NCBI GenBank assembly: GCA_017469785.1
Contig: JAFUFU010000025.1
Coordinates: forward strand, 46,413 to 110,412
Length of the DNA stretch: 64,000 bases
Origin: Treponema sp.
GTDB lineage: Bacteria > Spirochaetota > Spirochaetia > Treponematales > Treponemataceae
Direction: 5' to 3'
Shown: in pieces, positions 5,203-10,937 of the stretch
How positions within the stretch are numbered: position 1 is the first letter of the stretch
How the letters are laid out: every line of letters starts with the position of its first letter
Notes under the pieces: generated by a model
Seen by the model: the letters and a program-made list of their open reading frames with translations, nothing else
Told to the model about the DNA's origin: nothing
Databases searched by the model: none
Translations under genes and position numbers: made by a program

Positions 5203-6999
5203 CTACTTAATATAAAGGAATAATTTCATGCCGGTTTTGGTATAACCGCTCTTTGAACTGAAGGTAATCGTGTAGCTGTTTGTTCCAGACGGAATGACAG
5301 CGCTTTTTCGTTTTAAGGCCATTCCATATGACTGAGAAATGGAGGTCAAAAGAGTATTTGCGTTAAATACCAGCGGCCCGAAATACTTGTATTGTGAATC
5401 AATGTAAGAAGCGCCGATTTCACTTTCACTGTATTGCCTATAGGTAAGTGACTTCCCAGGAATTAGCGCGGCGTTCAAGTCATACATTGATGAAGACTCC
5501 CACAGGTTGATGGCTGTCATAGGATAATCGTAAGTCGTGCTTTCGCTTGAATAGGTGATTGTTTTGGCCGCATCTTTATTGAAGGTGTATTCTGAATCTT
5601 TACCGTAGCAGGCCTTGATGAACTGAGCGAACAAATCGTCAAAAGTGAAGCTTGTTCCATTTAATTCGTTGACGGCCGCCACGATACATTCGTTGTTTGT
5701 CTTTTCGTTCGACATCATTTCCTTGACCAGGGCCGCTCCCCCGTACTGACGGCAGAGCCATGAGCCGAAAGCGTAGGCATTTGCATAGGCAAGCGATGAA
5801 TTGTCGTAACCGCGGATGCCGCATCCGAAGTATTCAATCATGAATTGCAACATTCTGGACTTTGGAGAATCCTTGTCTTCAATCGTGTAGCCTTTGTCCG
5901 TCAGGAATTTCTGCATCATGTCTTCACAGAGCATGGAAAGCATTTCGTTGAAATTTGTGTCGGTGTCATTGCCTTTCACACCGAAGTGAACCATGTGCTG
6001 GAATTCATGTGCCAGCGTGGAAATAATTGTATTAACAGATTCCTCCTGAGTTGCGAAGAATGAATCGACATAAAAATACTTTCCCTGATTTGAATAGGAA
6101 TAAAGGTCTTTTGCATAATAGTCGCCGGATGAGAAGAAGCCAAGGACATTGCCCTCTTCACCGTCTGCGAACAAGTCATAAATTACGATATTGATTTTTT
6201 CACCAGTATCGCTCACTTCTGTCATGGGGCTGGTAGTGTATTCTCCCGAAAGAAGGGAGGTGGAAACATAGTTTGTATAAATTTCATCTGATTCTTTGCC
6301 GAAAACATTGGTCACGACCGGATAAAAGGCAGCGAAAGCGGCGGCGAATTTTCCTGCCAGATTCTGTTTTTCGGTATCGCTTGTAAGGTATTTATCACTG
6401 TTCACGACCCACACATTGCAGGTGTCGTTGACGGCCCAGAGTGTCGCGGACGCTTCGCGGCGGGCTGTATCATCGCTACTTGAGTCTGCAATAAATACGC
6501 TCTTTGTGGTGCCAACCTCTCGGACGATTTGAGTTACCGAATATGATGGAGAAGCGATTGATCTGGCGGAAGAGAATTCATTTGGATTCGGTTTGAAATT
6601 GTAGCCGACGTAATGCTTGAACCTTCCTGAGGATACTTTTTTTGCGGCCGCTACTTCCTGTAAAGGCTCTTCTGATTCTTCTGCCGCACTGCGGTTTGAA
6701 TTCGTGCTGGACATATATTTGATGTAGTCTGCTGCGATGGAAGAGTCCGAGGTGTTGACTTCTGCAAGGTAGAGATTTTTGCCGCCGATATCTCCGGAAA
6801 TCGTAATGGAATTCACGGATTCATCAACGATAAATGTGTCTCTTCCGCTGGAATTGTATGTCCATGTATCTGTTGATGTGAAGGAAACATCGTCGAGACC
6901 AAGAAGTCTTCTGATGGTATCGCTTCCTTCGCCTGAAAAATCACATCCTGTCAGCCCGAGCAGTGAAAGTGAGATAAGTCCGAGAATAAGTTTTTTCAT
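5203..6999 (-). CDS. M30-like zinc metalloprotease lipoprotein, paralogue 1
   Basis: The protein has 598 residues. The lipobox is LTGC (about residue 18). A zinc site 'STLAHEFQHMVHF' lies near residue 330, giving HExxH plus a downstream 'FNEMLSMLCEDMMQ' that can supply the third ligand. This pattern matches the peptidase M30 (hyicolysin-like) group found in several treponemes. A prepro-like region of about 170 residues precedes it, and a beta-rich C-terminus follows. The ATG at 6999 has CGGAG five bases upstream. The next gene upstream is a paralogue. Substrate is unknown; the protein is probably surface or periplasmic. Confidence 0.82.
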   Translation of the reverse strand: MKKLILGLISLSLLGLTGCDFSGEGSDTIRRLLGLDDVSFTSTDTWTYNSSGRDTFIVDESVNSITISGDIGGKNLYLAEVNTSDSSIAADYIKYMSSTNSNRSAAEESEEPLQEVAAAKKVSSGRFKHYVGYNFKPNPNEFSSARSIASPSYSVTQIVREVGTTKSVFIADSSSDDTARREASATLWAVNDTCNVWVVNSDKYLTSDTEKQNLAGKFAAAFAAFYPVVTNVFGKESDEIYTNYVSTSLLSGEYTTSPMTEVSDTGEKINIVIYDLFADGEEGNVLGFFSSGDYYAKDLYSYSNQGKYFYVDSFFATQEESVNTIISTLAHEFQHMVHFGVKGNDTDTNFNEMLSMLCEDMMQKFLTDKGYTIEDKDSPKSRMLQFMIEYFGCGIRGYDNSSLAYANAYAFGSWLCRQYGGAALVKEMMSNEKTNNECIVAAVNELNGTSFTFDDLFAQFIKACYGKDSEYTFNKDAAKTITYSSESTTYDYPMTAINLWESSSMYDLNAALIPGKSLTYRQYSESEIGASYIDSQYKYFGPLVFNANTLLTSISQSYGMALKRKSAVIPSGTNSYTITFSSKSGYTKTGMKLFLYIK

Positions 7000-7087
7000 A
7001 AACACTCCGTGTGTAAATCCTTACAAAAATCAGAAGAAGTTCTGAAATCTGTAAGTTATTATAACTTATTCTTAAAATAAATTCCTA

Positions 7088-8713
7088 CTATTTCACGTAA
7101 ATATACATCAACAGGCTTGAATTTGTTTTTCCTGAATCGGAGTTGAAAGAGAGCGTCACAGTATTTCCGTCAATTTCGCCGAATGTTTTGAGGAAGATTC
7201 CATAAGACGGGGCGATTTCTGTAATCGCGTCGTTTTCAAAGATGGTCATTGTCTCGCCGAGATTAGTGATTTCCGTGAGATTGATATTGCGCATGGGGTA
7301 GTCATAGCCGTCTTCTGAGCGTATTGTCTGGGGAGCGTCCTTGTTCCTTGCGCTCAGTTCACCATCGAAGCAAGCCGCGATGAATTCCTGGAACAAGTCA
7401 TCAAAAGTGAATGCGCGGCCTTCGATTGCGCTTACGGCGGCCGCAATGCATTCATTGTTTGCCTTTCCGTTCGACATCATTTCTTTTATGAGAGCCGCTC
7501 CGCCGTATTGACGGGCAAGCCATGCTCCGAAAGCGTAGGCGTTTGAATATGACTGGAGCGATGTTGCCTGTCCCCGGATTCCGGCGTCATAGTAGTGTGA
7601 AAGGAATCTTCTGAGCCTGTTTTTTGGTGTGTATGCGTCCTGAACATTGAGGTATTCCTGCATCATGTCCTCGCAGAGCATGGAAAGCATTTCGTTGAAA
7701 TTCGAGTCGCTTGCCTGTTGATTCATAGCCTTGACGGAAAAGTTAATCATGTGCTGGAATTCATGGGCGATGGTCGAAAGTGTGTATTCAAGATTTTTTG
7801 TTGCCAGATATGAGTCAATGTAGAGATATTTTCCTTCGTTTGAGCTGTCGATTTCTTTTCCGCTTACCGTAAGGCCGTTCTTGAAATAGTCGCGGTTTGA
7901 GAACATTCCGATTACCTTGCCTGAAATGCCGTCATTGTACAGGTCGTACATTACGATGTTCACTTTTGTGCCAGTCTCGCTGAACTCATTCATAGAAGCA
8001 AAGTCGCCCTCTGATGTCACATAAATCAAGTCAGATTCCTTTCCGAAGACCTTGCATACAACCGGATGCATTTTGGCGAATTTCTGCGCGTAAGTTTCAG
8101 CAACTTCTTTTCGCTTGCTCTGGGGAATGTGTTTTTCGTCATCCACAATCCACACATTGCAGATTTCATTTACAGCATAGAGGGTTGCTGATTTTTTTAT
8201 GGAAGAATCTTTATATTCAGAAAGAAACAATGTCTTTTTTGACTCGAAAGGAACTTCCTCGATTCTGTGAGCTTTTCTGGCCGGTTCACTGGCGGCAGCG
8301 CGCGCGCTTGATGCTGAAAAAACCGGAGTGATGTCATCTTCATGGTGGCAGGTAAAAAATTCCTCGTCAGCGTGGGAATGTGTGTCATGCGTGATGTTGC
8401 GCGAAACAACTGCGGCTGAGCGCGCGTTCTGTGAAACGATGTATCTGACGTATTTGCCTGAGATTTCGTTTGAGCTTGTGTTTACCATGGCGTAGTAAAG
8501 ATTTTTTCCTGAAATATCGCCGGAGAGGGTAACAGAGGCGACAGAGGCATCAACCGTATAAATCTCAGAATTTGAGGAAACCGAAAATGACGCTGAATTT
8601 GAGGGAGTGATTGTTGCCGATGAGGAAGAAGGTGACTCGAATGAATCTTCCTCATCGAACTGGCAGGCGACCAAAGAAAACGCCACAAAGCAGACAAAAA
8701 GTAATCTCTTCAT
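7088..8713 (-). CDS. M30-like zinc metalloprotease lipoprotein, paralogue 2
   Basis: The protein has 541 residues with a lipobox-like LVAC near residue 17. It shares with the neighbouring paralogue the N-terminal motif 'SGDISGKNLYYAMVNTS', the zinc site 'TIAHEFQHMINF' (about residue 318) and 'FNEMLSMLCEDMMQEY'. A His-rich patch (HDTHSHADEEFFTCHH, about residues 109-124) is absent from paralogue 1 and might bind metal. The C-terminus is about 60 residues shorter. TAGGAG lies about 10 bases upstream of the start. The tandem layout points to gene duplication. Confidence 0.82.
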   Translation of the reverse strand: MKRLLFVCFVAFSLVACQFDEEDSFESPSSSSATITPSNSASFSVSSNSEIYTVDASVASVTLSGDISGKNLYYAMVNTSSNEISGKYVRYIVSQNARSAAVVSRNITHDTHSHADEEFFTCHHEDDITPVFSASSARAAASEPARKAHRIEEVPFESKKTLFLSEYKDSSIKKSATLYAVNEICNVWIVDDEKHIPQSKRKEVAETYAQKFAKMHPVVCKVFGKESDLIYVTSEGDFASMNEFSETGTKVNIVMYDLYNDGISGKVIGMFSNRDYFKNGLTVSGKEIDSSNEGKYLYIDSYLATKNLEYTLSTIAHEFQHMINFSVKAMNQQASDSNFNEMLSMLCEDMMQEYLNVQDAYTPKNRLRRFLSHYYDAGIRGQATSLQSYSNAYAFGAWLARQYGGAALIKEMMSNGKANNECIAAAVSAIEGRAFTFDDLFQEFIAACFDGELSARNKDAPQTIRSEDGYDYPMRNINLTEITNLGETMTIFENDAITEIAPSYGIFLKTFGEIDGNTVTLSFNSDSGKTNSSLLMYIYVK

Positions 8714-8858: not shown

Positions 8859-9597
8859 ATGAATATTTGTCTTTTTACTCACGAAGAAATTAGGAATCCG
8901 CTTCCCAAAAATGATGATCGGGCAAAACACATCATTAAGGTCCTTCATAAAAATACCGGTGATACCTTTGACGCCGGAATCATCGGCTGGGGCTGCAGGA
9001 ACTGCCACGATTACAGAAATTTCCCAATCTGGGGAGATTTTCTTTGATTTTGAGCCGAAGACGGCTGGCAAAAAGCTTTATCCCCTCACGCTCATTATCG
9101 GGTTTCCACGGCCCATCCAGCTCAGGCGGCTTTTGCGGGATGTCGCGGGGCTGGGTGCTCAGAAGGTAATTCTATGCGCTACCGATTTGACAGAAAAATC
9201 CTATCTTGATTCAAACGTGGTCGCAGACGGAAGCGCATATAAAATGCTTTTGGACGGAACTGCTCAGGCTGCCAGCACCCATGTTCCCGTTCTGGAAGTG
9301 GCAAAATCGCTGGACGAGCTTCTAAAGTCCGCAAATTTAGCCTGGGAAAACAGCTCAAAAATTGCCCTTGATAATCGGCGAGCTTCTTCGTCACTGCATG
9401 ATTTTCTGGCCCACGAGTCGGCTCATTCGGTGATTGCGGCCATCGGAAGCGAGCGGGGGTGGACTGAGCGGGAGAGGGATTTACTTGAGTCCGCGGGATT
9501 TTCCCTCTGCTCCATGGGAACACGAATCCTTCGCACCGAGACTGCCGCAACGGTTGCAAGCTCAATCATTCTTGACGCGATGGGCTTTCTTCAATAG
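8859..9597 (+). pseudogene. RsmE-family rRNA methyltransferase, frameshifted
   Basis: Two overlapping frames together make one RsmE-like protein of about 246 residues, the usual family length. Frame one gives 'MNICLFTHEEIRNPL...DTFDAGIIG'; the other continues 'GAAGTATITEI' to the knot-type C-terminus 'IGSERGWTERERDLLESAG...MGTRILRTETA', which binds SAM in the SPOUT fold. The shift lies near 8982-8992 in GGCTGGGGCT; removing one base restores one frame. The family methylates U1498 of 16S rRNA. An intact RsmE gene lies at 17166, so this copy may be a divergent paralogue, decaying or carrying a sequencing error. Confidence 0.8.
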
Positions 9598-9642
9598 AAT
9601 ATTTATCAGTTTTACAAGTATCCTTAATGGTCGATTAGCTCA

Positions 9643-9717
9643 TAGGGAGCGACCCGTCAGGGGCAAAACCTGCGAGGCAGGTTTTGAGCGATTCTCGGAA
9701 AAATCTATGATTTTTTC
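9643..9717. repeat. Palindromic insert in the outer D-arm
   Basis: About 75 bases separate GCTCA from GTGGTAGAG of the outer tRNA relic. The insert holds a perfect 9-bp stem, AAAACCTGC (9665-9673) with GCAGGTTTT (9677-9685) around GAG. Its GGGAGCGACC...CAGGG portion resembles the repeat at 35705-35720, so it may belong to the same repeat family. Confidence 0.6.
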
Positions 9718-9726
9718 GTGGTAGAG

Positions 9727-9944
9727 TATTTTTGGTGGTCAATTAACTCAGTGGTAGAGTGTGTGGTTTACGATGATTGTGTGTTTTTAATGGTCGATTA
9801 GCTCAGTGGTAGAGCGCTACCTTCACACGGTAGATGTCACTAGTTCGATCCTAGTATCGACCATTAAAAACATCCTATAAAGGTAAAGCCACTTTCACAC
9901 GGTAGAAGTCACTGGTTCGAACCCAGTATTGACCACCAAAAATA
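9727..9944. repeat. Middle split tRNA-Val-like palindrome
   Basis: TATTTTTGGTGGTCAAT (9727-9743) is the perfect inverse of 9928-9944. The 5' half carries an acceptor strand GGTCAAT, TA, and an intact D-arm (ACTC-AGTGGTA-GAGT). The 3' half carries TTTCACACGGTAG (anticodon loop and stem), then a full T-arm ACTGG-TTCGAAC-CCAGT and ATTGACC. The two halves are separated at the anticodon-stem region by the inner tRNA unit, so the middle copy cannot form a normal tRNA without removal of the insert. Confidence 0.8.
9792..9863 (+). tRNA. tRNA-Val(CAC)
   Basis: This is a complete 72-nt cloverleaf. The acceptor GGTCGAT pairs perfectly with ATCGACC, the discriminator is A, the D-arm is GCTC-AGTGGTA-GAGC, the anticodon stem CTACC pairs with GGTAG, the loop is TTCACAC (anticodon CAC, reading GUG), and the T-arm is ACTAG-TTCGATC-CTAGT. 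CCA is not encoded. The flanks GTTTTTAAT (9783-9791) and ATTAAAAAC (9863-9871) extend the acceptor helix by nine pairs, which is unusual for a tRNA precursor. Confidence 0.93.
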
Positions 9945-10020
9945 TTTGCGCTCCCGCGGTTCGATCCTAGTATCGACCATTAAGGATATTTTTTTGTCTT
10001 TCAGCATTTTTCTATTTAAA

Positions 10021-10076: not shown

Positions 10077-10937
10077 TTATCGGAGCAAGCTCAAGACTGA
10101 CTGTGACTGCTGGTTTGCCTGAGCAATCATAGCTGTTCCTGCCTGCTGGAGGACCTGGTTCTTTGTGAAGTCTACCATTTCCTTAGCCATATCAGTATCA
10201 CGGATGCGTGACTCAGAAGCCTGGAGGTTCTCAGCACCGATGTCGAGTCCGACTACTGTCTTCTCGAGGCGGTTCTGGTAAGCACCGAGGTCTGCACGCT
10301 GCTTGTTAATCTTTTTGAGAGCTTCGTCCAAAGTTCCGATTGCGCGGTTAGCTGAATCAGGATCTTCGAGAGACATAATCTCTTCGTTTCCAACGTTGCG
10401 GAGTCCGAGAGCACCAGCTGTCATTGTACCGATGTAAGCCTGGATGCGCTGATCCATGTTAGCGCCAACGTGGAACCACATAGAAGCTGTAACAGAGTTT
10501 TCGCCTGTTGAGCGAGCGAAACGACCAGTCAAGAGGTTCATGCCGTTGAACTGAGCCTGTGAAGCGATTCGGTCAACCTCAGCGATGAGAGCTGAAACTT
10601 CAACCTGAATCTGCATGCGGTCTTCATCGGTATAGATACCGTTTGATGACTGAACTGCGAGTTCGCGGATTCGCTGAACGATGTCAGTTGTCTCCTGAAG
10701 GTATCCTTCAGTTGTCTGGATGAACGAAATTGCGTTCTGAGCGTTCTCAGAAGCTTTGTTCATACCGCGAATCTGTGCGCGCATTTTCTCAGATACTGCA
10801 AGGCCTGAAGCATCATCGCCAGCACGGTTGATTTTCATACCAGATGAAAGTTTTTCCATGTTTTTGGTGTTGCTCAACTCTGTAAGACCTGTTGAACGCT
10901 GTGCAAACATCGCACTCATGTTGTGATTAATAACCAT
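10077..10937 (-). CDS. flaB: Periplasmic flagellar core flagellin FlaB
   Basis: The protein has 286 residues, the usual length of spirochaete core flagellins. The N-terminal D0/D1 helix '[14 protein letters not shown]' and '[19 protein letters not shown]', and the C-terminal '[20 protein letters not shown]', are diagnostic. There is no signal peptide, as expected for export by the flagellar type III system. It builds the core of the periplasmic filament. AAGGAG lies 8 bases before the ATG. It stands alone with its own terminator and a leader of about 100 bases. Confidence 0.98.

Follow-up and report, generated by a model that had tools for sequence, protein, structure and literature searches.

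Nested tRNA-Val genes and tRNA-enclosing helices in Treponema and related spirochaetes

Several described systems come close to the arrangement reported here. The intrinsic (Rho-independent) terminator places an inverted repeat and then a run of T at the end of a gene. The REP and REPIN sequences are dispersed GTAG palindromes (PMC3733652), and the interrupted, split and permuted tRNA genes hold the halves of a tRNA apart (PMC3978253). At the level of processing, pairing between the leader and the 3' end of a pre-tRNA slows the RNase P of Escherichia coli (PMC9433436). Among the titles and abstract beginnings of open-licence articles in PMC, no precedent came up for a tRNA nested in a tRNA or for a tRNA serving as the loop of a terminator. 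The locus described below has the first of these arrangements, and the second is how we read it.

Layout of the nested locus

The window is a stretch of 64,000 nucleotides from a Treponema sp. (GCA_017469785.1, contig JAFUFU010000025.1, positions 46,413 to 110,412 of the forward strand). The genome it belongs to is called G000, other G-numbers are the relatives compared and L-numbers are fetched loci. Three concentric tRNA-Val units occupy window positions 9619-9988, as the initial annotation had proposed, and each is closed by a perfect 17-bp inverted repeat: 9619-9635 with 9972-9988, 9727-9743 with 9928-9944, and 9782-9798 with 9856-9872. The outer and middle repeats are those given at the outset, and the inner one proved to be one base longer at each end. 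The extensions differ from unit to unit, as had also been noticed, with the outer arms matching one another and not the middle or inner arms. When the 601-bp region was resampled 200 times under a first-order Markov model, no exact inverted repeat exceeded 12 nt, a length reached in 3 of the resamples, versus at least 16 observed. The features are as follows.

8911..9597, + strand: upstream gene with an RNA methyltransferase domain (ORF; PF04452, E 9.9e-31), which we take to be RsmE-like
9572..9600, + strand: predicted promoter-like site TTGACG-17-TAGAAT within the 3' end of the upstream gene (consensus scan, 10/12)
9619..9628, + strand: outer unit, 5' arm of the enclosing helix, TATCCTTAAT, pairing perfectly with 9979-9988
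9629..9642, + strand: outer unit, 5' part of the tRNA (acceptor strand and first half of the D arm), identical to the 5' end of the inner tRNA
9643..9717, + strand: REP-like dispersed three-hairpin element in the outer D loop, with matches across G000 and relatives
9718..9726, + strand: outer unit, second half of the D arm, GTGGTAGAG
9727..9736, + strand: middle unit, 5' arm of the enclosing helix, TATTTTTGGT, pairing perfectly with 9935-9944
9737..9761, + strand: middle unit, 5' half of the tRNA (GGTCAAT... to GAGTG); G212 has an intact tRNA-Val(CAC) here
9762..9781, + strand: 5' linker, 20 bp, of which 9763-9771 pairs with 9883-9892 with one bulge
9782..9791, + strand: inner unit, 5' arm of the enclosing helix, TGTTTTTAAT, pairing perfectly with 9863-9872
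9792..9863, + strand: intact tRNA-Val, anticodon CAC (ARAGORN, Rfam)
9863..9872, + strand: inner unit, 3' arm of the enclosing helix, starting at A73, with no T-run after it
9873..9893, + strand: 3' linker, 21 bp; the linkers of G023 and G115 are similar by eye
9894..9935, + strand: middle unit, 3' half of the tRNA, with T arm and acceptor strand intact
9935..9944, + strand: middle unit, 3' arm of the enclosing helix
9945..9947, + strand: TTT, possibly a leftover of the middle unit's T-run (compare ACTTTTTGCG in G099)
9948..9978, + strand: outer unit, degraded 3' half of the tRNA (GCGCTCCCGCGG remnant, T loop, acceptor strand)
9979..9988, + strand: outer unit, 3' arm of the enclosing helix, ATTAAGGATA, pairing with 9619-9628
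9989..9995, + strand: T7 run, predicted transcript end (from sequence)
10077..10937, - strand: flagellin gene, convergent (PF00669 and PF00700)

Taken alone, the innermost unit is an intact tRNA. ARAGORN and Rfam agree on it as the sole tRNA at the locus, Val-CAC at 9792-9863 with 68.7 bits, which is how it had been read initially. It is also the single CAC tRNA among the 42 tRNAs read in G000, where Rfam gave 43 matches at E up to 1. Since both programs report the inner gene alone, such loci are easily overlooked. The middle unit lacks the 5' strand of the anticodon stem (CTACC), which G212 keeps, and removal of its insert as if it were an intron leaves no CTACC and no full tRNA. In the outer 3' half the anticodon-arm part is gone and a short REP-edge remnant (GCGCTCCCGCGG) is present; this half is fuller, with REP insertions, in G212 and G023. 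No T-run follows the inner unit, and the middle one is followed by no more than TATTTG. The 395 nt from 9604 to 9998 are predicted to fold into concentric cloverleaf-like units at -151.7 kcal/mol (z = -10.95), with none of 100 shuffles equally stable.

The surroundings recur in relatives. The same upstream gene lies directly 5' of tRNA-Val(CAC) in G020, G053, G099 and G129, and directly 5' of tRNA-Val arrays or nests in G022, G066, G139 and G212. The outer-unit arms are found again around one single intact gene in G185, and the same T7 follows intact copies in G185, G101 and G066. Further upstream in the window, two adjacent long look-alike ORFs on the minus strand (5203-7005 and 7088-8713) both contain a HEFQHM motif by eye and are presumably peptidase-like.

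The genome was assembled from a metagenome, and so were four of the relatives (three Treponema from goat omasum and from roe deer omasum and reticulum, and RUG13083, an uncultured Spirochaetaceae), a circumstance that could suggest an artefact. The nest is not an assembly error: nests occur in the separate assemblies of five other genomes (G023, G212, G115, G463 and G038), of which G463 is a 1-contig genome, and an artefact is scarcely conceivable.

The element in the outer D loop (9643-9717) exists in many dispersed palindromic copies, as a REP does. A 411-bp query had 18 matches in G000, most of those listed falling within query positions 41-125, and the segment 44-120 of that query has hits at many positions in G000 and in relatives. 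In G066, G212 and G023 the outer unit is broken by REPs elsewhere as well. The repeat family itself (TAGGGAGCGAC...) is about 75 bp long with three hairpins, is dispersed in this Treponema clade and has hairpin arms that covary between copies (window 9643-9717, L052-L062). It occurs inside and beside tRNA genes, and in one case (L043, G000:C31:120584-121071) a copy begins right at the 3' end of a tRNA-Leu(TAA).

tRNA-enclosing helices outside the nests

Within G000, pairing between leader and trailer occurs outside the nest at one other tRNA, Val-GAC, where a T-run follows. Thirty Val-GAC loci were fetched from the genus as the best matches in 196 genomes, and an enclosing helix was assigned by eye at 21 of them, a share that is biased upwards because the query included G000's own arms. 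Over 18 distinct leader/trailer sets, 98% of the cells of the ten-pair helix are paired. There are 36 double-change cells, a number that none of 2000 shuffles attains (7.8 +/- 3.7 in the shuffles), and 15 further pair types, which 42 of the 2000 attain (12.1 +/- 1.1); the shuffles ignore relatedness, which inflates such counts. Our scan placed an ordinary downstream hairpin at 6 of the 9 Val-GAC loci without the helix versus 1 of the 21 with it (p 0.0009), and at that single locus the hairpin sits further downstream. At another Val(GAC) locus (L103 of G083) the upstream arm of the enclosing terminator is kept and the downstream side is an ordinary hairpin terminator, possibly a half-way state.

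The Val-CAC genes of the genus and the order present a similar picture. Of 41 loci read, 16 have by eye an in-register helix adjoining the acceptor stem, in four families: those of G000, G023, G022, G066, G185, G101, G115, G056, G099 and G212, and, in three other families, those of G038, G034, G029, G030, G028 and G037. A fixed rule gave 17, adding G033 to the 16. An ordinary hairpin is found at none of the 16 helix-bearing loci versus 9 of the 25 others (p 0.007), and by a crude scan 16 of the 41 have neither. The helix is not confined to nests, being carried by un-nested genes in four families (G099, G185 and G056 in f1; G028 and G037 in f3; G029 in f4; G030 in f5). Covariation was counted in 13 of the 16 helices, three being left out whose arms repeat others. 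These loci, chosen for having the helix, show 44 double-change cells, a number that none of 2000 shuffles attains (10.2 +/- 3.2 in the shuffles), and 23 further pair types, which 1 of the 2000 attains (16.7 +/- 1.9); here too the shuffles ignore relatedness.

Enclosing helices as a general property of tRNA genes can be set aside in the four genomes compared. Among 142 tRNAs from four genomes of three families (42 in G000, 42 in G034, 43 in G029 and 15 of the 40 in G037), a helix score of at least 9 was reached by Val(CAC) in all four genomes, by Val(GAC) in G000 and by no others; the next scores, for Arg (8.0) and Pro (7.5), belong to offset pairings with no T-run after them. Other tRNAs of G000 (Ser, Thr, Tyr, Gln and Gly, at L031, L036, L044 and L049) have at least four T directly 3' and no enclosing helix.

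We read the enclosing arms together with the T-run as an intrinsic terminator with the tRNA as its loop, often used by tRNA-Val genes here, since the arms pair, covary between species, usually precede a T-run and mostly replace the ordinary hairpin. The inverted repeat stands directly before a T-run in the outer unit (17 bp, then T7) and at the un-nested genes of G099, G185, G056, G029 and G037. By the counts given above (1/21 versus 6/9 for GAC, 0/16 versus 9/25 for CAC), an enclosed gene mostly has no other candidate terminator. The loop is not short, being a 72-nt tRNA or an entire nest. The extended stems seem better explained as such tRNA-enclosing terminators, present at un-nested tRNA-Val genes too, than as part of a mobile hairpin. 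The arrangement appears to be common in the order at tRNA-Val(CAC) genes that are not nested, and in part of the genus at those for tRNA-Val(GAC). If this reading is true, the terminator that ends transcription of a bacterial tRNA can have that very tRNA as its loop, and the release of RNA polymerase would depend on the joining of the tRNA arms, a simple fold-dependent stop.

Intermediate states and the origin of the insertions

Comparison of sequences between species brings out not one nest alone, but several nests with their intermediates, covarying helices and inverted copies of flanks. In G099 one intact gene lies between the same two neighbours, and its arms resemble the middle unit's. 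In G066 an outer-type gene is interrupted by REPs, with GTGGTAGAGCGCTTCC undisturbed and no middle unit, and is followed by a whole copy. In G212 the REP-interrupted outer gene is otherwise nearly complete, an intact middle gene is inserted after GTGGTAGAG, and there is no inner gene. In G000 the inner gene occupies the place in the middle gene where CTACC would be, and G023 has the inner gene with the middle 5' half absent, perhaps lost between GTGGTAGAG repeats. In G115, which is more distant, the nest has two levels and sits in a gene whose G056 relative stands alone. Far from sharing one structure at one site, the relatives differ widely, and the empty-site comparison that the initial annotation had proposed was fruitful between species: G066 and G212 lack insertions that are filled in G000.

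Nests were also sought more broadly. Of 390 genomes of the order searched with a pattern, 3 matched, namely G000, G115 and G463 (from another genus), a count that is a lower bound because the pattern requires GGTAGAG and misses G023, G212 and G038 (the last has GGGAGAG). A scan of 44 Val-CAC loci for extra halves, which REP-broken arrays escape, found nests in six: G000, G023, G212, G115, G463 and G038. The nest of G038, from another family, has two levels (L004, reverse strand, about 1430-1720), with perfect inner and outer arms and a T-run after each. That of G463 (L230, 1491-1804) is an independent tRNA-Val nest, with a 94-bp repeat downstream made of a T8 run, a linker and a tRNA 3' half. 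In a tree of 20 RsmE proteins (so named by our assumption) the nested genomes are not grouped, G000 standing with un-nested G099 (83/85) and G023 with G212 (97/98), so loss, sideways transfer or a repeated origin of nesting must have come in. Since only 4 of the 17 inner branches of this tree are well supported, the order of events is taken from the intermediates.

Partial-plus-whole tRNA-Val arrays do exist, in G022, G066, G101, G139 and G034, and one could picture the nest as such a tandem array after decay, with the 5' half of its first copy and the 3' half of its last left over by chance. We hold this to be very improbable, given that the outer arms match mutually and not the middle or inner ones (likewise in G038), and that the outer gene of G212 is nearly complete save for REPs and the middle insertion. 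The argument made at the outset, that tandem duplication fails to explain the order of the halves and repeated insertion does explain it, holds up: the pre-insertion states that G066 and G212 preserve for the middle and inner units, together with the separate nests of G115, G463 and G038, speak against the former and support the latter. One of the arrays (L007 of G034, about 1511-1690) consists of a whole enclosed tRNA-Val(CAC) and then an extra tRNA-Val 3' half.

How a copy could be inserted is best seen in G038. After two further bases its insert opens with CGGCAAGCGCAACCC, which is the last part of the 3' linker in exact reverse complement (15 of 15 bases). Next comes a copy of the upstream flank of the gene itself (CCCTACATA), followed by the gene, a T-run and the gene's own downstream flank (ATTGTGGGTTGCGCTT), which occurs again after the outer gene. 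G463 has the same layout, with the downstream flank repeated after the inner and outer units and an inverted copy at the 5' end matching at 13 of 14 bases. Such a layout is what one would expect from template switching, or from fold-back copying at a hairpin, and it is the presence of the gene's own flanks and of an inverted downstream-flank copy at the start that makes template-switch copying the likeliest route. A mobile element bounded by terminal repeats would give a similar picture, but it should not draw its repeats from the local flank.

The initial annotation had inferred such an element, a tRNA-derived mobile hairpin, or else nested tRNAs in need of unusual processing. In its fuller form, a transposase-like activity would move a REP-like hairpin to just after GTAGAG or GGAGAG in tRNA-Val, and several observations are in keeping with this: terminal inverted repeats surround the insert in G000, G023, G115, G463 and G038, each of these uses the same tRNA position, and REPs occupy the same tRNA at GTAG/CTAC places. 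However, the suggested search with the 89-bp unit gave 4 matches in G000, of which the best 2 both lie within the nest, so that no dispersed copy was seen among them, and all three matches in G463 fall within the locus. The suggested search for a REP-type transposase was equally unrewarding in G000 (97% complete), where the best match to PF01797, the Y1 (RAYT-type) family, had E 0.27, below the cut-off. Over the 14 genomes searched, a set that did not take in G038, PF01797 was over the cut-off in 5 (G099, G053, G115, G139 and G185) and not in the other 9, which include G000, G023, G212 and G463. The repeat sequence also varies from lineage to lineage, that of G038 being local flank copied in inverted orientation, and by eye the middle insertion looks clean, whereas others lose a few bases of CTACC(T). 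A freely mobile hairpin is not supported, and a mobile cassette of this kind is, we think, unlikely.

The linkers are harder to place. In G000, G023 and G115 they form a 9-bp helix, compared with one bulged base per genome left out, in which 4 of 9 pairs differ between the three genomes and all are compensated; the G115 linkers resemble those of G000 and G023 despite the distance between the species. Compensation of this kind, together with the very stable fold (z = -10.95) and the recurrence in several lineages, could mean that the nested RNA has a function in its own right, its shells and linker helices being selected as a scaffold for folding or processing, or as a decoy. Against this, compensated arms are also expected from inverted copies made separately, the outer unit is degraded and REP-interrupted, and the middle 5' half is gone in G023, and we regard such a function as rather doubtful. 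The compensated linker arms fit either separate inverted copies or selection on structure. In G000, G023 and G115 arm pairing alone is seen, and a linker there could not be demonstrated to be an inverted copy of native flank. A REP origin of the linkers was dismissed, the REP copies in the fetched loci being unlike them by eye. So was an origin of the 5' linker from a gene that we take to be carB, for which two places in G099 match G023's linker at 17/20, near chance; a search of 11 genomes with that linker, a query unable to match G000's own, gave 6 places besides its own versus 2 for a reversed control.

Taken as a whole, the explanation we consider probable is one transcript, a tRNA-enclosing terminator and successive insertions of tRNA-Val genes, likeliest by template-switch copying. 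Promoter use, termination, processing of the inner tRNA and the copying mechanism are what we infer from the sequence. One promoter (about 9572-9600) would give one transcript of about 395 nt ending in the T7 at 9989-9995, the outer inverted repeat and outer acceptor stem acting as the intrinsic terminator with everything between them as its loop. A tRNA-Val gene with its arms would have entered the outer gene at the border of D and anticodon arms, and another would have entered the middle gene, in its anticodon arm. Each of the two events would inactivate the host tRNA yet supply an intact one in the same transcript, which is how the insertions could be tolerated. The tRNA-Val(CAC) would come from the innermost unit only, freed perhaps by double-strand cleavage of the helices before RNase P acts.

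A bolder version joins several of these ideas, and we give it little credence. tRNA-Val genes with enclosing helices would be self-inserting cassettes. In several lineages a hairpin-dependent activity would repeatedly place an intact gene copy, with its own flank duplicated in inverted orientation as the boundary, into tRNA-Val anticodon arms. Insertion would be harmless because the copy replaces the gene destroyed, and the nested RNA would be kept structured for the folding, termination and processing of the inner tRNA.

On the preferred explanation of tolerated template-switch insertions, the nests would be a gene inserted stepwise into itself, with the intermediates present in living species. 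Three or more lineages have such an insertion, each time at the same position of the tRNA.

Comparison with known systems

Like REPs and REPINs (PMC3733652), the element at 9643-9717 is a dispersed palindrome that often starts with GTAGGGAGC and has stem arms that vary together. It differs in having three hairpins and about 75 bp as compared to 20-40 bp, and in the lack of a Y1 transposase over the cut-off here. For the tRNA units themselves no dispersed copy was seen among the best 2 of 4 matches in G000 or among the three in G463. With the interrupted, split and permuted tRNA genes (PMC3978253) the locus shares tRNA halves that lie apart with other sequence between them. Here, however, the insert is another complete tRNA gene, and the host lacks its 5' anticodon strand.

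The initial annotation had also called the extended acceptor stems odd for RNase P, and rightly: pairing of leader and 3' end is documented to slow the bacterial enzyme (PMC9433436), so the processing puzzle is real. The question is how a tRNA is cut from a 17-bp paired precursor nested in two others. In the E. coli case too the leader pairs beyond position 73 and hinders RNase P. There a few pairs form with the 3' RCCA, whereas here there are about 10-13 pairs and usually a T-run, and CCA is not encoded beside A73.

The closest likeness remains that to the intrinsic terminator. The 5' arm here is upstream of the tRNA and the loop is a whole tRNA or nest, a length that is not textbook for such a terminator. 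What the two share is an inverted repeat and then a T-run at the end of the gene, in a place that many relatives fill with an ordinary hairpin.
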